From the NCBI GenBank assembly GCA_029891345.1, contig CM057006.1, positions 43,747,056 through 43,811,055 of the forward strand: DNA of 64,000 nucleotides, in the 5' to 3' direction. Shown piece by piece: positions 1 through 53,867 of this stretch (its first letter is position 1; every line of letters begins with the position of its first letter). Below the pieces are notes generated by a model that worked only from the letters and a program-made list of their open reading frames with translations, was not told where the DNA came from and made no database searches. This DNA is from Dryococelus australis (lineage: Eukaryota; Arthropoda; Insecta; Phasmatodea; Phasmatidae). The position numbers and the translations under genes were made by a program.

Positions 1-957
1 GTCATGCACATGAGACTAGGGGAAACAAGACAGATCTCCGATAAACCCCTTGTATCAACAACAATGTCCAACACAACATCCACATGTTCTCAATATTTTG
101 TTTATATGGTGTGACCAGCCCAGGGAGGCGAGTGTGCTAAGCGCTCAACCAACACGTTCCCTCTCTTTTTATGTCTAGCAAAAAAAAACTTTCCAACAGC
201 ATAATATATTCCATGTAACATAAATTTATATATTTGAGTATATTCAATATTTTGACAGTTTCCGACATAAGTTCAACGAAACAGTGCGAATACAGGCAGC
301 AATCATGTTTTTCATAGTTGGAATATAGTGATTGCCACATTATTTTTACTTTTTACTAAAAGGTTAAAATTCTTGTAAATTCACAGGAAAATAGTGGCCA
401 TTTTGAATCCTTACTGTATATAAAGAGGGATAAATTAATTTTGCTCAGTTTTAACTCGGCATCTGCTAAGGTCACTTCGAAGGTGTGTGTGTGCATTGCA
501 GTAGCATAGATAACAATGCCAGGTGTCTACTACAGGCTTCCAGGAAGTGTCGACATCAACGGCAAGCGTTGATAATCTGAACGACACCAGGCGTCCACTA
601 CAACAACAGATGCTCACTACAATGTTTACTATAATGACAAACATCCATCATGTCTACTACAACTCCAAGCGTCCACACCGAGAACGATGCCAGATATACA
701 CTACAACTTCGCTACATCTAGAACATCTCAATGCAGAATATACAAGGCATTTCATCTTTGCATCAGGTACAATGCATCAAGGTCACTGCTGTTGACAATT
801 GCGACTCTGAATGGGTTAAAACGTTCAATGCTATTTTAGCTTATAGGAAGGCAAAAACTTTATTGAGTCTAGAGTGTTCCCTACTGCGAGTATTGCTGAA
901 AGAATTCATAATTTGTTTTGTGGGGCACAAAATAAAACTAGTGTATCTGTTACTGGC
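1..957. other. No gene recognised
   Basis: AT-rich sequence. Short ORFs of up to 123 codons on both strands show no recognisable domain or consistent coding character. A cysteine-containing reading frame begins just downstream of this interval. Confidence 0.5.
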
Positions 958-960
958 TGA

Positions 961-1173
961 ACATTTAAAAGCCATATCCTCTATTTACCTTGTGATGGCT
1001 GTCCTTGCGGCATGCTTGCCTATGCTAATGATGAGAACTTACAGCATATGCGGAGGGATTGTATGTCGTGCAGACTGGAACAGCTACTTGAAGCTAGAAT
1101 AATTCCATATACAGTAATGGACGATTCCAGAGTTGCTGAAGTAGATTCCGAGGCGAACATGGTCATCTTATAA
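961..1173 (+). pseudogene. Cysteine-rich coding remnant, family unknown
   Basis: A 70-codon open stretch follows the TGA at 958-960 and ends at TAA 1171-1173; it has no ATG near its start. It reads as protein more than chance AT-rich sequence does: it contains CDGCPCG and, about 20 residues on, MRRDCMSC, then an acidic tail. The paired CxxC-type cysteines could bind metal or form disulfides. It lies upstream of the cysteine-rich modules at 1761-3718 and may be an exon or a decayed part of the same gene. I do not recognise the family. Confidence 0.3.
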
Positions 1174-1760
1174 AATTTTATACTAGAGACTTTTTTTTTT
1201 TTTGGAAGTAGTGTATAAAGAAATAACACAAAAATGATGTGCTATGGCAAGGGTTTCGAAAACTATCAAGACAACTCCTTTTAATTAAAGAGCTTGCTAT
1301 TTCTTATGCAACCAATGCTAATGACTAAATTATTATGCTTTAAATCTCACAGACCTTGGCACAGTTTAAAACCTGATATTAAAGTAATGTTTTGGGAACA
1401 GACTTAACAAATACATAACCTGAAATGGGACTCTGGTTATATATCTTACAAAAAACTTTTTCAATATGTAAATGATGCATTACTTGTAGACTACCCCATA
1501 TATGTGCTTGGAAAAATGCAGAAGGAGATTTTAAAAACTTTAACAAATGCAGAAGTAATAAAAAGAAATTAACATGACTGTTCGAGTATTAATTCAATAG
1601 TCAAATGCTATAGTACAAATCAATGTGAGGAAAAAACATTCTGCTCACAATGTAAAAGCGAAGCTTTAAGAGAATATTTGTACCAATATCCTACCTATGT
1701 GTAGAGATATTAATTTTTCGAATAAATGGTTTGTTCCAGGTAGCATAAGATTTCGAAAAA
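1174..1760 (+). pseudogene. Frame-broken cysteine-rich stretch upstream of module A
   Basis: Two short cysteine-containing readings follow each other in different frames: 1479-1577 (includes ITCRLPHICAWKN) and 1573-1704 (includes HDCSS, KCYSTNQCEEK and FCSQCK). They overlap by a few bases and are offset by one base, as expected of a decayed module with a frameshift. Homology to the modules downstream is plausible but weak. 1174-1478 shows no clear signal; a poly-T run lies at about 1191-1201. Confidence 0.25.
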
Positions 1761-2201
1761 ATGGATAAATTCGACCCAGAGAAGACGTACTTCACTGTTT
1801 TTCGAGGACACAAGAAAGTATGATTCCAGTCTCTAGGCAACATATACTTTCAAACACAGATGTGTAATGGAAATGAACATTGGAATTTCGCAGAAAGTTT
1901 TGGAGAAAGCCTGTATACAGAACGAGTGCTGTGTGATGAAGAATATTTTCCTGTTTTTAATATGCGGTGTGACAGCAAATAGCCCTGTTCTTCTAGGGAC
2001 CTATGTTTTAAAAATCTTAGTACAGAAATAACTAAAGAACCGGGTTTTCATCAAATCAAATATAAATTGATTAGAGAATTTTACGATATCACCACAACCT
2101 CATGAACTGAAACATGTAATAATAAGGAACACATCACGCATATACAAGGCAGTCGCACATTTTTAAGGTCGCCATGCAGAATGTGGGACTGTGAGGTTTG
2201 A
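1761..2201 (+). pseudogene. Module A of a repeated cysteine-rich protein, interrupted by stops
   Basis: One frame from ATG 1761 to TGA 2199-2201, about 146 codons, with internal stops at 1821, 1980 and 2103. Landmarks shared with modules B and C, in order: M(D)KF near the start, a basic (F)RGHKKV patch, QMCNGNEHW (from 1857), a DLCFKNLSTEI-type segment, then TETCNN..H and a final CRMWDCEV. Conservation across the stops shows this was once read through. The cysteine spacing suggests a secreted, disulfide-bonded domain. No signal peptide or known domain is recognised. Confidence 0.5.
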
Positions 2202-2317
2202 AAAAGCATGGTTCGTTTCTGTAAATTTTATCCAAAAAAGTTATTGTTGAAGAACTAATTTTAACTGGAAGAACATCTGTCTATATAAAGAGAGAATCGT
2301 ACACCAGAGCTTCAGTT

Positions 2318-2755
2318 ATGATGGAGAGGTTCGGCTCATCACCTCAGTATGCTAGTTTTACTACAGGATTCAGGCGAGTGTGGTCTCGAATAGAAGATGA
2401 AGATAGTCCATTACAGATACAGATGTGCAATGAAGATGAACATTGGTGTTCCTCATTAGTCAGTCCAACAGAAACTTTTAAAGTTTTCGACATATGTTAT
2501 GGGTGAAATTATTGTCCTTTATATAATTTACATCCTGACAACAAGCTACCTTGTAATGAAGGTAAACTAGAATTTGAAGCTCATGGTGGATACATCACCA
2601 AACACAAGTCCTGCAAGAAAATGAAATACATTGTGCAGGAGTTTAGTTGCAGTTCTCTTACTACAGTTTGAACAGAAGAATGCAACAACAAGCAACATTA
2701 TACATACATCGATGACCAAGAATTAACTTTTCCCTGTCACATGTAGCAATGCAAT
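2318..2755 (+). pseudogene. Module B of the repeated cysteine-rich protein
   Basis: Starts at ATG 2318 (MMERF) and stays alignable with modules A and C in one frame to about 2755. TGA 2504, TGA 2669 and TAG 2744 interrupt it. Shared landmarks are GFRRVW, LQIQMCNEDEHWC (MCN at 2423), LPCNEG, KYIVQEF, TEECNNKQH and a terminal FPC..(stop)QCNV. Module A's QMCN lies 563 bp upstream and module C's equivalent about 498 bp downstream. The family is unknown. Stop-codon readthrough or unusual splicing is not excluded but is less likely than decay. Confidence 0.5.
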
Positions 2756-2821
2756 GTTTTTCAAAGCAAGAGCATCTAGCAGACTATACAAAGGAGTGTG
2801 GCTAGTATTAAATTGTCAGTC

Positions 2822-3308
2822 ATGGCTAGGATCTTCAACCATACAGATGTATACAAAGTCCCGTAAATATGATACAGAAGAGTGTTCTTTAAACTATATG
2901 GTGGTATTCTACAAGTTCATGTCTGTAACATTAAAAGAACATTGGTGCTATACTTTCAACAACAGTCTCAGCATTCGTTTTGGTGAAGGACTAGCATACA
3001 AGGATTGTGCTGTGAGATATCTTCGCCCAGACAGTAACTTGCCATCAAGATTAGAAGATTTGATGATTGCCAGTCTTAGCAAGGAGATAGAAGAACAGGG
3101 ATACATAGTAATCGAGTACCAGCTCACCAGACCTCACCAAGGAATCACCATTTGTTGGAAGGAGACCTGCAACGGGGACATCCATAACTTTATTTTCGAA
3201 CAAGGAGGATTAGTTTTTCCGTCAATGTGTAATTTATATGTGTGTGAAGTGGTTATTCACAATAATGATCCCAATGTTCCCATTGTGCCCAATGAAATAC
3301 AAGTATGA
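2822..3308 (+). pseudogene. Module C of the repeated cysteine-rich protein, best preserved, frameshifted
   Basis: The N-terminal part aligns with module B in module B's frame: VMARIF at 2822, YRRVFF, then LQVHVCN ending at 2929, with stops at 2864 and 2870. The rest aligns one frame over, from EHWC at about 2937 to the stop at 3306-3308. A frameshift therefore lies between 2929 and 2937. The open part, about 120 codons, includes LPSRLEDL, GYIVIEYQL, KETCNGDIH and VCEVV, and ends in a 15-20-residue tail absent from the other modules. This ORF can be opened back to an ATG at 2754, but 2754-2930 in that frame matches no other module. Confidence 0.5.
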
Positions 3309-3376
3309 GTTTTTTACTAAAGGTTTGCATTCTGTAACACAGCATATTATAATAATCACATTTTGTTGTTAAGGAA

Positions 3377-3718
3377 ATGTGTGAGTCAGACATTCATTTC
3401 AAATGTTCATCTTTCTCCCAAGCTTTTAGAGGACATGGTAAACCAAATATTTATGATGCCACATTAACTAACTGCAACAGTTCTGAATGTCTTGTAAACC
3501 AGTACAGACCGCACAGAGTATATCGTAAGCATAAACTTAAGGACAAACACATTGTAACTTCATATTGTGAGGAAGAAAAATGTTTAAAACATCTTGTTTA
3601 TAATACAAACACTGTTTTGCCATATCAGTATTTTGAAGAATGTGATAATAATCGTCATACTTTATATCAATGTAGCAAAAATAATGTTGGTTACATGTTT
3701 TATACTGGGTGTTATTAA
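3377..3718 (+). pseudogene. Module D, divergent cysteine-rich module
   Basis: A 113-codon ORF in module B's frame. MCESDIHFKCSS at its start corresponds to MCNEDEHWCSS of module B, and ECDNNRHTLYQ near the end to ECNNKQHYTY. The remaining similarity is low, but cysteine density is high (10 of 113 residues). The MC position lies about 456 bp after module C's, continuing the spacing of 563, about 498 and about 456. It is intact over its own length, so it could be an exon. It could instead be read as a stand-alone small secreted protein, but no signal peptide is visible. Confidence 0.4.
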
Positions 3719-4306
3719 TCAAAATGTTATGTACATTGAGCAATAAAATTAGCAAAAAAAAATTTAGCCCTAAAACACGTTTCAACTTGCAAATTTTGAG
3801 GATGAATTTATATATATACACATTGTACCTTTCTAAGTCTTCTAAGTCGAGTGTTGGATGTCATAGTAGCAACATGACTTATTTTCATCCTGCAAACCAT
3901 TATTCCAGTGTTTAACAAGGAAAGTCATACACCGTATGGTGCCAGGAAATTTTGCAAGAATTTATAGAAACTTGTGACAAAATGTTTTATTTTAAAGTAA
4001 TTTACTTTTCTCTAGGAGATGAAAAGAGTCACAACACAAACTCATACTGTACGGTAACAATAAGAAATGTCCAGTGTTTAATATGACTGCAAACACACAT
4101 CTTCCATCTAGTATGAAGATTTTTACTCTCATTATGTTGAATCATATCCTGATTTGGTTGAAATCATTGTTTTACATGCTCCTTCTTGTAAACCTGGGTG
4201 TAATAAATCCTCACATCTTGAAAGCAGAGGCAAAGAAGGGGATCTGGATCCAATTTTAAGAAAATGCATGAAAACTTTGTTCACAGAAGTTGCTAACAGT
4301 TTATAA
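3719..4306 (+). pseudogene. C-terminal part of the cysteine-rich gene
   Basis: Two coding-like pieces: 3916-4086, directly after the TAA at 3913-3915 and containing IETCDKMFYF and SYCTVTIRNVQC; and 4112-4306, in the module B/D frame, containing SYPDLVEIIVLHAPSC, KPGCNKSSHL and DPILRKCMKTLF before TAA 4304-4306. The second piece looks like a genuine C-terminus. The intervening frames carry stops, so at least one frameshift is needed to join them. Confidence 0.35.
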
Positions 4307-4439
4307 AAATATTTGTTTTAAAGAAAAATGTTGTATGTATTTTGAATTAATGTTTTGTGTTACCTTGTAGGTGTTTCGAAGCAAGGTGTAATTGTTGCAC
4401 ATAAGTTTTTGAGCTATCTGTATTTTTGAAATAATTGTC

Positions 4440-4790
4440 TAATATGTTTTGTAACATGCTGTATATGCTAGTGTTAAAAAAAATGTTTTAAATATATTGT
4501 AAATTCACTTATGTTTGCTTAGCATGAAAATGTTTGGAGCAAATTCTACTTGGTAGTGTCAAAATGTTTTGTGTCATCCTATACTTGATAGTGTTTAAAT
4601 AATTTAAATAAGTGTGTAATTTGTATATGTTTTGGAGCAAAATTTTTTCTACTTGTTTAGATATGTTTTTGAACATAGTATGATGCTTCATATTTAAATT
4701 GATTTTTTTGGATCATCCTATATTTGTATATATCATTTAAAAAACAATTTTATAATATGTCCTATGTTTTGTAACATCCTGCAGGTTCCT
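4440..4790. repeat. Degenerate tandem repeat, about 100-bp unit
   Basis: ATGTTTTGTAACAT-like motifs recur at about 4444, 4563, 4666 and 4762. A second motif, TTGGAGCAAA followed by TCTACTTG, recurs at about 4532 and 4630. Copies are diverged. The array lies directly downstream of the cysteine-rich remnant and could be its former 3' untranslated region. Confidence 0.5.
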
Positions 4791-4799
4791 GATTTTGTA

Positions 4800-4805
4800 A
4801 ATAAA
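4800..4805 (+). promoter_or_regulatory. Possible polyadenylation signal AATAAA
   Basis: AATAAA lies 494 bp after the last stop of the cysteine-rich remnant. The hexamer is frequent by chance in AT-rich DNA, so only its position supports it. Confidence 0.2.
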
Positions 4806-4915
4806 TTAATGTTTTAAAATGAATTTTTTACATTTATTTAACCGATCCTTATTTAAAGTGAACTTGTTTTAGTAAGAAAAATATTTTTTCGACAGAGAGG
4901 GAAAAGTAATTAATT

Positions 4916-5022
4916 TATCTCAGAGAAAGAGTGAAAGAGAATGAGAAAGAATGAGATAGGATTAGAGAGAATGAGAGAGAGAGCGAGAGAGAGAGAGCAT
5001 GAGAGAGAGAGAGAGAAAATCA
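4916..5022. repeat. GA-rich low-complexity tract
   Basis: Repeated GAGA and GAAAGAGA motifs, purine-rich on the plus strand, grading into a nearly pure (GA)n run at about 4970-5015. Confidence 0.8.
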
Positions 5023-5379
5023 GCATTAGACTATAATTGATCATTGCGTATCCGTGTGTCATTTAGTTTTCCTGCGAACGCTGTAACCAAAAGGTGATAT
5101 GTCATGTCTGGCAAAGCTTCCACTTCCCTTCATTTACGAATTTTGACCATAATTTAAACTCAGTTATCTATCAGCCGTGCTAGACATCTCTACTCACAGC
5201 TCGATGTAAGTGCTACTCATTCATACATCGAACAGACTTATTTTAATATCATTTGGGGTAAGATTTTCTATCATTATTATCAGAATAGACATCACTAATA
5301 TGTCTGGTTTAAATCATATTCAGAGTTTTTTTGCCATAAGATATCATTCCCCAGGCTGAATCGTGTAATTTGTACGTGT

Positions 5380-5790
5380 AAACTTTTTAATTTATTATTA
5401 ATTCATACTGACTAGCTGGATTTCGTTTAAAGACAATAAAACATAGTTGTTCATTATACTTGTCTCTTGTGTCATTCATTCATCCTTAGAACTCGTTTGA
5501 GAATATTTTGTTTAAAGACTCTGCCTTGTGTAATTTCATACTGGCTAGTTGGATTTCGTTAGGTCAATTTGCACTTGTCGACATCAGATGATATTCAAGC
5601 AGTTAAAATTCTCACTCATGTAAATTATTATTCTAAGCTCGAGACTCGCGTTACATTTAATTTCATACTGGAGTAATTACATTTATTATTATTCATGTAG
5701 TCGTTTGAAATTTTCGATTCAATGTGTATAATGTATTCATATGTAGAACTCGTTTAAATACTCTGAAATTATCTCGTGTGTTAAATATAT
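5380..5790. repeat. Degenerate direct repeats
   Basis: TTCATACTG.CTAG.TGGAT occurs at about 5403 and 5534 (131 bp apart), with a shorter TTTCATACTGG at about 5660. AGAACTCGTTT occurs at about 5488 and 5746. This suggests an old tandem array or the interior of an unknown element. No gene is seen in 5023-6080. Confidence 0.4.
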
Positions 5791-6079
5791 TAGTAAAAAT
5801 CGCCTATCTACCACCAATATATCTACAAACACATCAAAATTAGAAAAAAATAAGATAATTTACACTTAGCCCACTCTTGCACTCAACTCAACACCTATAT
5901 AACACATTGCAACCTACCACTCTGGTCAGTCGCCTTCAGGACACTACAGCGTCAACATCGTACAGAGCTCCTGCTACCCCCTCCCCCACCCAAAAAGAAA
6001 GAAAGAAGTATAAAATCAACCTATTCAATACATTGAACCATTTCATTAAATTTAACCCTTTCGATTTATTTAACCCTTT

Positions 6080-6185
6080 CAATTTTTGATCGGATTAAGG
6101 ATAATACGATAATCAAATCGATAATCCTTCAATTAATCCCTTTGTATCTGACACCCCCCCCCCCACTCCCCCTCCACGGTTCTAC
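6080..6185. repeat. Dispersed repeat with GATCGGATTAAG motif
   Basis: The motif TTTTGATCGGATTAAG followed by GATAAT..GATAATCC reappears at 30560-30780. In both places it is followed by a C-rich run and CTACTAC..TACTCC. Here it abuts the truncated left side of a TATAG-1 element. Confidence 0.4.
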
Positions 6186-6553
6186 TACTCCTACCTGCTA
6201 TATTTTAACTGTCGCTATGAGTGGCATGTGTTCAGTAAAGTTGGTAACGATGGAGGGGAAATGTAGTTATATATATTAGCGTCAGACAAAAACTGTTAAA
6301 TAACCATTTGTGAACTTAAATTATTTCTCGCCCCCCTTTTTTTAATGCACCGAAGTGTAAAAATGAGGAGGTTTATACAGTGTTTACTTTTATAATAATT
6401 TCACAGTTTCACATGACCGACGCATGAATAAAGTGATGAGGCTCATGGCAACGTTAATCTTACATGATGCGAAAGAACACACACCGTGCATACAAGTAAA
6501 TCGATCTTAAGCAGGACTTTCAAAAGTGCTCATTTTACCGTGAACAGCCTATA
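6186..6553 (+). mobile_element. TATAG-1 element, left end missing
   Basis: First of about twelve copies of a non-autonomous TIR family of about 420 bp. Full copies run from TAGGCTGTTCACGGTAAAG to CTTTACCGTGAACAGCCTA. Conserved interior blocks are AGTAAAGTTGGTAACGATGG, ATCGAAGTGTAAAAATGAGC, TTGACCGACGCATGAATAAA and CTTAAGCAGGACTTTCAAAA. There is no ORF, so it would need a transposase supplied in trans. The TATA at the ends fits a TA target duplication as in Tc1/mariner elements (inference). This copy starts inside the family consensus, after ACTCCTACCTG. Confidence 0.75.
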
Positions 6554-7025
6554 GGAAGCACCTTCCTCACTCAGTCTGTCCAGGAAGTACTGTAGTTGTG
6601 TCGCCACTCAGTGCGCCGACGACTTGATCATCGGGAATCTCGCGGGCGGACAGACATGCAACTCGGCAGTGCTATACCGACCACGCGGCCTCAGCAGCCA
6701 CTGGCGGTCGACCCGCCTAATTGTCACGTGGGCTTCTAACGAGCCCCGTCTGACGCCATGGCGAGCTGCCGAAGGAAGCGGAGATTCCACGGAATTGCTC
6801 TCCAAGTCCCTTGTTCGAGTTCCCCTCGTTAGATTAACACGCTGCAGGCAAACCTTTGGGAGTGCGTGCGCCTGGAAAACAGATAAGATTGCCGAGTAGT
6901 TCAGTCTGCGGGGAAGTTTACTCGCGATCCTTCTCACTAGGCGGCGGCGTCGACCACCCGACGACGCGTGAGTAACGCGAGTTTGGATGCGTCGTGCAAA
7001 ATGTTCATCGCGCTATTCAGGTTAC
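6554..7025. other. No gene recognised
   Basis: Moderately CpG-rich single-copy-looking sequence. ORFs of 109 (minus strand) and 91 (plus strand) codons overlap each other and are probably chance. Confidence 0.5.
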
Positions 7026-7270
7026 TATAGGCTGTTCACGGTGTAGTGAGCACTTTTTGATGCCCTTCCATTTGGAATAATAATCAAAAAATATATTTTA
7101 TTGTTGTCCTAGACGTTAACATTGGAGTCCGGTGAAATATCCACACTGTGCTTTATTATTTACCTTGCAATATTTATTTTAAAATGTGGCTAAAAGGATT
7201 AAAAAAATAGCTGAAAGGAAAAAAGTAACTAGGGCCTCGAAAGTGCTCACTTTACCGTGAACAGCCTATA
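7026..7270 (+). mobile_element. TATAG-2 element, complete
   Basis: A shorter TIR family of about 240 bp. It shares about 30 bp of terminal sequence with TATAG-1 but has a different interior, with blocks such as GTTTATTA.T.AC.T.GCAAT and GGAAAAAGTAACCAGGGCC. Both TIRs are present here. TATAG-3 begins in the same TATA at its right end. Confidence 0.8.
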
Positions 7271-27048: not shown

Positions 27049-27288
27049 TATAGGCTGTTCACGGTAAAGTGAGCACTTTTTAAGGCCCTTCCAGCAGGCG
27101 TTAACCACCAATAAATATATCTTATTGCAGACTCAGGCATTAAATTTAGAGGGTGATAAAATGTACACACTGTGTTTATTGATCACATTGCAATGTTTAT
27201 ATTAAAAGCTGCAGGAAGATGGAAATTAGATGAAACGAAAAATTTATAAGGGCCTTAAAAAGTGCCCACTTTACCGTGAACAGCCTAC
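27049..27288 (+). mobile_element. TATAG-2 element, complete
   Basis: TATAGGCTGTTCACGGTAAA at the left and TTTACCGTGAACAGCCTA at the right, 240 bp. The best-preserved copy of this family in the window. Confidence 0.85.
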
Positions 27289-35384: not shown

Positions 35385-35800
35385 TGGTTTATAATCCACT
35401 CATGATTACTTCACATTTTTCTGAAGGCCTGCTAAAGTTGTACTCCCAGGATATTCCTCCGCCTCGTGCAAACTAAGCGTAACTAAGTCCGGGAAATTAC
35501 ACCACGGGAAAACGCACCGCTTTATTGCGCACTCAGTTGTAACCGGCCATTCACGTTAAAGTGAAAGCCTTCTCATTTGGAATAATAGTTAATTAGTATG
35601 CTTTACTTTAGTCTTGGACGTTAACTTCCGAGTGCGGTGGAGTATACACACTGTGTTTATTACTTACATGGCAATATTTATTTTAAAAGATGCTTAAAGG
35701 ATAAAAAATGGCTGAAAGGAAAAAGTAACCAGGCCGTCAAAAGTGCTCACTTTACCGTGAACAGCCTATAATATTATATTGCATGAAAACTATTGACTGA
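35385..35800 (+). mobile_element. TATAG-3 remnant interrupted by TATAG-2
   Basis: 35385-35542 is the left part of TATAG-3 (ATAATCCACTCATGATTACT, GATATTCCTCCGCCTCGTGC). TATAG-2 occupies 35545-35770. Beyond it TTATATTGCATGAAAACTAT resembles the next block of TATAG-3 (TTATATTTTGCGTGATAACT). TATAG-3 was therefore already present when TATAG-2 inserted. Confidence 0.6.
35545..35770 (+). mobile_element. TATAG-2 element nested in TATAG-3
   Basis: GGCCATTCACGTTAAAGTGA at the left and CTCACTTTACCGTGAACAGC at the right. The left TIR is diverged and the family's GAGCACTTTT block is partly deleted. Confidence 0.75.
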
Positions 35801-46709: not shown

Positions 46710-46940
46710 TATAGGCTGTTCACAGTAAAGTGAGCACTTTTGGAAGCCCTCTCATGAGTAAATTAAAATATTTTATTGTAGCCTTAGACGTGAACTTCCG
46801 ATTGCTGTGGAATATACAAACTGCGTGTATTACATACGTGGCCATAATTATTTTAAAATTTGGTTAAAGGACAAAAAATGGCTGGAAGGAAAAAGTAACC
46901 AGGGCCTCAAAAGTGCTCACTTTACCGTGAACAGCCTATA
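46710..46940 (+). mobile_element. TATAG-2 element, complete
   Basis: TATAGGCTGTTCACAGTAAA at the left and CTTTACCGTGAACAGCCTAT at the right; GGAAAAAGTAACCAGGGCC is conserved. Confidence 0.85.
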
Positions 46941-53594: not shown

Positions 53595-53816
53595 TATAGG
53601 CTGTTCACGGGTAAAGTGAGTACTTTTGAGGCCCTAGTTACTCTTTTTTATCCTTTAACTACCTTTAAAATAAATATTACAATGCAAATAATAAACCCAG
53701 TGTATAGATTCCACCGCACTCGGAAATTAACGTCTAAGGCTAAAATAAAATATATTTGACTATTATTTCAAATGAGAGGGCTTTCAAAAGTGCTCACTTT
53801 ACCGTAAATAGCCTAT
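53595..53816 (-). mobile_element. TATAG-2 element, complete
   Basis: TATAGGCTGTTCACGGGTAA at the left and CACTTTACCGTAAATAGCCT at the right. It lies 16 bp from TATAG-3. Confidence 0.8.
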
Positions 53817-53867
53817 ACATACGTACATACATACATTCATTGAGGGGGGGGGGGGTCTGTGACGGTG

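Follow-up and report, generated by a model that had tools for sequence, protein, structure and literature searches.

What are the repeated cysteine-rich modules at positions 1761-3718 of a 64,000-nucleotide stretch of the Dryococelus australis genome (GCA_029891345.1, contig CM057006.1, forward-strand positions 43,747,056 to 43,811,055; hereafter the window)? An earlier note, made from the letters alone, described them as modules A-D of a single secreted host protein, repeated in tandem and now broken. We conclude that they very probably belong to the left-hand gene array of a decayed copy of an abundant Maverick/Polinton-like transposon, a reading that combines tandem genes with a mobile element.

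The modules are related to one another at the protein level. Naturally open stretches from other copies were compared by Smith-Waterman alignment against 500 shuffles, and A-B, A-C and B-C gave z scores of 16.8, 19.4 and 11.5, respectively. The proposed similarity of these three is borne out at the place where it was reported, as is the recurrence of the MCN block after 563 bp (1848 and 2411). A fifth paralogue, gene E, which the four-module description missed, lies downstream of D at 3874-4306 and resembles A (z 5.1, a score reached by none of the 500 shuffles), B (z 3.1; 3 of 500) and C (z 2.5; 10 of 500). Module D resembles C (z 3.3; 3 of 500), and the pairs A-D, B-D and D-E showed no significant similarity in these comparisons. 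In a second comparison, with frames trimmed to begin at Met and the D piece taken from an internal Met, the z scores were 12.4 for C-E, 7.8 for C-D, 4.9 for A-E and 3.9 for B-E, and A-D, B-D and D-E were likewise not above chance. D is thus tied to the family through C only. On these scores A-E are paralogues in tandem, as the duplication proposed earlier implied. The product of N2, a gene upstream of A, is not clearly related to them: one comparison, with A, gave z 2.8 (7 of 500 shuffles), and the other four gave nothing.

The ancestral array would have consisted of ORF0, N2 and the five paralogues on one strand, each of about 130-165 codons. Conservation of starts and stops was scored site by site across up to 15 genomic copies, and the features of the window copy are as follows.

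772..1173, + strand: ORF0 (~133 codons), now decayed; start codon present in 9 of 9 copies and stop codon in 8 of 9
1234..1680 (end approximate in the window), + strand: N2 gene, now decayed; start codon present in 8 of 9 copies
1761..2258, + strand: gene A (module A), now decayed; start codon present in 9 of 15 copies and stop codon in 13 of 15
2321..2791, + strand: gene B (module B), now decayed; start codon present in 14 of 15 copies and stop codon in 11 of 15
2822..3265, + strand: gene C (module C), now decayed; start codon present in 12 of 15 copies and stop codon in 13 of 14
3265..3718 (end as in the earlier note), + strand: gene D (module D); start codon present in 13 of 14 copies
3874..4306, + strand: gene E, now decayed; start codon present in 9 of 13 copies and stop codon in 5 of 8

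Some of these genes are open elsewhere in the genome. N2 is a natural 146-aa ORF in copy L010, and copy L017 carries natural ATG-to-stop ORFs for C (148 aa) and E (155 aa), with homologous starts and ends, both closing in EVANS plus one residue. A-E are most likely tandem paralogous genes of about 145-165 codons, each with its own start and stop and, by implication, expressed separately.

Core-promoter motifs accompany several of the starts.

417..450, + strand: promoter-like TATATAAAG...TCAGTT upstream of ORF0, 34 nt (at 3473 in L009)
2282..2316, + strand: gene B core promoter, TATATAA ... TCAGT; TATATAA in 10 of 15 copies, TCAGT in 14 of 15
2785..2820, + strand: gene C core promoter; TATATAA in 10 of 15 copies, TCAGT exact in only 9 of 15

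In both B and C, a TATA box stands about 30 nt ahead of the arthropod initiator TCAGT, just before the ATG; in other copies, the stop of B sits within the TATA box of C. The TATA distance and initiator agree with those given for Drosophila, where a TATA box about 30 bp upstream is combined with a TCAGTY/TCAGTT initiator (as described in PMC6483594). A scan for TATA[AT]A[AG], 14-32 nt, TCAGT[CTG] and an ATG within 12 nt returned 25 forward matches across 16 stretches, where dinucleotide shuffles predict 0.60. Most of the matches are doubled by nested starts, and 13 distinct sites are left; among 10 left-half loci, these precede B in seven and C in five, and the remaining one lies upstream of E in L014, where its ATG is not the proposed start of E. 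Gene E has a weaker TATACAT-like box, with CTCAGTC about 28 nt ahead of the start in 8 of the 12 copies listed. Gene A has no clear TATA, and gene D gave no TATA-initiator-ATG match in the scan. The motif columns are only modestly better conserved between copies than their own spacers (likeness of 0.907 vs 0.849 and 0.806 vs 0.765). Host RNA polymerase II would read the core promoters of B and C, as well as the less clear one of E. Other promoter-like sites were seen: a TATATAAC...TCAGTC site in the right arm of the window copy (5896-5931) is directed outward, L013 and L019 have comparable forward sites close to their right ends, and there are three reverse-strand matches to the pattern, one each in L009, L012 and L014.

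The array lies within an element with recognizable ends.

1..6189, + strand: part of the element copy within the window, with inverted repeats, tips and target duplication
5124..6189, - strand: right terminal inverted repeat, with the tip AGTAGTAG (minus strand) at its outer end
6190..6195, no strand: 6-bp target-site duplication CCTACC, with its partner at window -2478 to -2473

The whole copy runs from window -2472 to 6189 (L009 584-9245; 8662 bp). Its left arm lies outside the window, from -2472 to about -1383, and its two arms are 97.2% identical over 968 bp. A copy in L015 measures 17,495 bp from tip to tip, with 911 of 1028 aligned arm bases identical, and six further arm pairs imply elements of about 9.4-17.8 kb. 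Both ends were read in eight elements, namely the window copy, the one in L015 and the six arm pairs. Seven have recognizable tips, which in the window copy read AGTAGTAG with CCTACC on either side. The flanks of these seven agree at 6 of 6 positions in two elements, 5 of 6 in two, 4 of 6 in two and 1 of 6 in one, in a set that includes mutated tips at C3:107 Mb, C17 and C14:84 Mb (both ends) and at the right end at C3:69 Mb, for which the boundary was set by eye with the flanks known, which may favor agreement. Where the tips are clear on both sides, agreement is 6 of 6 (window copy), 5 of 6 (L015) and 5 of 6 (C4:95.68 Mb); with equal base frequencies, the chance of 5 or 6 of 6 agreeing is about 0.5% per element. 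Long inverted repeats, 6-bp duplications and tips beginning AG liken the element to Mavericks/Polintons, the last two being hallmarks of Polintons.

The element is abundant. A DNA search of the genome with 1761-3718 gave 2965 first-look candidates, of which 40 were scored to give 46 matches including the window, the other copies among them being 80-88% identical. The module B protein gave 7572 first-look candidates and N2 9396, with 150 matches from 150 scored in each case. First-look counts are not copy numbers, and our figure of thousands of dispersed copies is an estimate. In four places inspected by eye, a distance of about 1.0-1.06 kb separates N2 from a module B on the same strand (C10:82.207/82.208 Mb, C6:11.737/11.738, C14:54.803/54.804 and C1:253.974/253.975). 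The earlier idea of a gene that lost function here is correct as to decay, but this gene array is repeated at dispersed sites, and 1761-3718 represents a single copy. The window copy is a deletion derivative without the right (polymerase) half: homology of its left part to nine other copies ends by 5021, one short inverted match excepted. A search with the deletion junction matched the whole junction solely at the window itself (40 of 5075 candidates scored, 43 listed); the scored candidates thus include no second copy that shares this deletion.

Elsewhere in the window, a minus-strand ORF at 22604-23062 matches the DDE_3 endonuclease domain (E 6.1e-9) and is probably a remnant of a Tc1-type transposase. 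Another dispersed repeat, about 240 bp long and roughly 72-79% identical to part of L007, is present at 7023-7270, 27049-27287, 35545-35770, 46710-46940 and 53595-53817. Rfam and tRNA searches of the window gave no credible result.

Copies longer than the window's contain, ahead of the right arm, a coding stretch with DNA_pol_B_2 and Endonuclease_7 similarity. Both domains exceed the cut-off in L019 (3.2e-6 and 1e-5; one of six pieces), and in L023 both fall below the curated cut-offs (1.6e-4 and 1.5e-4). The inverted repeats, the 6-bp duplication and a PolB of the protein-primed type suggest that the element would replicate by protein priming and then insert by an integrase-type reaction. A genome-wide look for DNA_pol_B_2 gave 6287 first-look candidates, of which 91 were scored with at least 54 matches, some without internal stops, and the genome may contain several families of PolB elements.

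The core Polinton set comprises PolB, integrase, a C5 protease and an ATPase (as listed in PMC3671162). Pfam was scanned with raw six-frame translations, with X at stops, of L015 1-4500 and 5400-9900 and of L023, L018 and L016 5400-9900; in the L015 element, about 13.5 kb of the 17.5 kb were read in this way, all but the B-C region, some arm sequence and a spacer. In the scanned parts of these decayed copies there was no match to an RVE integrase (rve), a packaging ATPase, a cysteine protease, a jelly-roll capsid, a Superfamily 3 helicase or a parvovirus-type capsid. Two Spodoptera Maverick elements reach 4e-12 and 6e-16 for rve in CDD, and the ATPase and protease domains score weakly even in those elements (figures from PMC5803895). 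The absence of integrase, ATPase, protease and capsid from the element is suggestive and, since the copies are decayed, not proof; with core genes unrecognized in such copies, we use the term Maverick-like and stop short of counting the element as a full Maverick/Polinton. Low-complexity rows for DUF3915 (0.0027 at best) and Atrophin-1 also appeared in the six-frame scans and were not taken as real.

How did the genes decay? In-frame dN/dS, from a set in which overlapping loci can make one copy count twice and in which stop counts lean toward the open frame (an open query having been selected), is 0.28 for N2, 0.51 for A, 0.60 for B, 0.56 for C, 0.67 for D and 0.50 for E, and 0.50 and 0.52 for PolB. 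Off-frame values are mostly higher; the exceptions are frame 2 of module B (0.48) and of module D (0.54), and in module C frame 1 equals frame 0. Distinct stops among 11-14 copies number 13 in N2, 16 in A, 20 in B, 20 in C, 11 in D and 13 in E. Three of them recur in three or more copies, a single one each in N2, A and E, and stops and frameshifts are mostly private to a single copy or a few. With lesions mostly private and in-frame dN/dS of 0.28-0.67, constraint probably acted on the genes during the spread of the family, each copy seemingly inserting with coding genes and then decaying in place. The past constraint and the loss of function supposed in the earlier note both stand, the former with values of 0.50-0.67 for A-E; its description of in-frame stops plus one frameshift is to be corrected, the window copy having several lesions.

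Divergence between copies is about 10-16% from N2 to E, about 13-23% from the left arm to ORF0 and about 14-26% from E to the start of the polymerase region; we read the more divergent stretches as mostly non-coding. Codon-position periodicity is weak and patchy, modules included, with single windows above threshold also outside genes, and so does not settle the coding extent.

The arms of the window copy have a history of their own. Between L009 707-1674 and 8180-9147 (window -2349 to -1382 and 5124-6091), a near-identical center of about 600 bp is bordered by diverged edges. In slices of 121 bp, the five central ones are identical at 119-120 of 120 positions, the outermost at 112, the one next to the innermost at 116 and the innermost at 106; the tips beyond the arm core (123 and 98 bases) give 79 aligned columns, 72 of them identical. 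This pattern is best read as gene conversion between the inverted repeats. A recent insertion, which the 97% identity of the arms might suggest, was rejected, because an identical center with diverged edges fits conversion.

The A-E pieces, 116-155 residues long, contain 6-9 Cys and 4-8 His each, in keeping with the cysteine-rich products described earlier; a lesion cuts the B piece short, and the D piece is read from an internal Met. Simple hydropathy found no hydrophobic N-terminus or transmembrane stretch in A-E (maximal 9-residue value near the N-terminus 0.21-1.42; maximal 19-residue mean at most 0.92), leaving the idea of a secreted protein unsupported. The products are probably small, intracellular and Cys/His-rich and are likely to bind metal, presumably zinc. 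There was no credible match for the small proteins in Pfam or NCBIfam (Pfam on single pieces gave matches below cut-off or none), PDB, phages, PHROGs (top row at 0.008, which we discount) or viral contigs (a short-peptide search confirmed by tblastn); LEDGF rows in PDB (E 0.19-0.48) were judged to be chance. The collections searched hold no whole eukaryote proteomes, and relatives in other insects are possible. A profile search of the modules had been suggested earlier, with the prospect that a lack of profile matches together with a lack of any sign of selection would reduce their similarity to that of nucleotide repeats. Half of this holds: the available libraries gave no match, but in-frame dN/dS is 0.50-0.67, with off-frame values not always higher. 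A-E would have multiplied by tandem duplication, by analogy with the multigene families of large DNA viruses; that they act as accessory or host-interaction proteins is a plausible role that we propose tentatively.

So, could A-E after all be exons or in-frame modules of one gene, spliced or read through, with stops that are intronic or leaky? The regular spacing is compatible with this, and in window coordinates B and C share a frame in which the B stop and the C start are 33 nt apart, so that a single stop codon divides the two. Two copies read through from B into C (L037, 327 aa; L038, 264 aa), and close to the D start (~3303-3342) 11 of 14 copies show a GT..CAG stretch of 40-47 nt that resembles an intron, so that D possibly has a short intron of about 40 nt. 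A further point against separate genes is that a start of A can be recognized in no more than 9 of 15 copies. However, each unit opens with a common ATG and closes with a common stop, C and E occur as natural ORFs with homologous ends, core-promoter motifs stand directly ahead of the ATGs of B and C, and the start of D overlaps the stop of C in another frame. We take the read-through frames to be a derived state, since the B stop is present in 11 of 15 copies (11 of the 14 compared with L038). A frame change between B and C, to which seemingly shared 1-bp indels might point, was discarded, the indels being private changes of the reference copies L038 and L008. Because the starts and stops common among copies sit at module boundaries, the single modular protein of the earlier note is improbable.

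A host origin fares worse. A degenerate secreted-protein gene, duplicated and then lost with no mobile element involved, would account for cysteine-rich, tandem, decayed sequences that match no family, but not for candidate sites dispersed in their thousands, for terminal repeats that have tips and target duplications, for the PolB found among related copies, or for the lack of a hydrophobic N-terminus. We rejected it on repeat structure and hydropathy as barely credible, and the host gene of the earlier note gives way to part of a Maverick-like mobile element. Another proposal concerns only the accessory role and is compatible with tandem genes: A-E might be divergent capsid or surface proteins that took the place of the standard morphogenesis genes of Polintons. 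The scanned parts gave no recognizable capsid gene of the usual kind, and several paralogues share an element with PolB, but the products are short and Cys/His-rich and match no structural protein by sequence, and we regard a structural function as unlikely.

Returning to tandem genes in a Maverick-like element, it is conceivable, if doubtful, that the family represents a lineage without integrase and particle genes that kept PolB and gained a small promoter-driven tandem family. With borrowed or unrecognized integration activity, that tandem family would have allowed the lineage to reach thousands of copies in the stick insect genome. Mavericks are the most abundant repeat type in Timema cristinae and the third in Clitarchus hookeri (according to PMC5691397). 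For D. australis, 1.56 Gb of repeats could not be classified, and the words Maverick and Polinton are absent from the main text of the genome paper (PMC10268593). We found no description of this family among the open-licence papers searched. If our reading is correct, part of the unclassified repeat fraction of D. australis is an amplified Maverick-like family, and an uncharacterized gene family with readable core promoters joins the gene set of Maverick/Polinton-type elements. It also poses the question of how an element without a recognized integrase inserted so frequently with 6-bp duplications.

Large DNA viruses carry multigene families of tandem small paralogues with their own promoters. 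The array here is similar in both respects, although no sequence relation was found and the elements are of a different kind. With the Bidnaviridae (as characterized in PMC4061559), the element shares a Polinton-type PolB, inverted repeats and genes of other origin; in contrast, no helicase or parvovirus-type capsid was recognized here, and the element is dispersed in a genome with target duplications. Nine Polinton elements without a capsid gene are reported also to lack the protease and ATPase (PMC4028283), as the element described here may; the passages on those elements do not describe them as without integrase or as carrying a tandem family. A parallel in build is the insect Maverick/Polinton of Spodoptera, which is of the same size class and whose POLB carries an adjoining endonuclease VII domain (PMC5803895), as in the element described here. 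Unlike it, the D. australis element has no recognized integrase, A32-like ATPase, protease or capsid, and it carries a tandem family of small genes.
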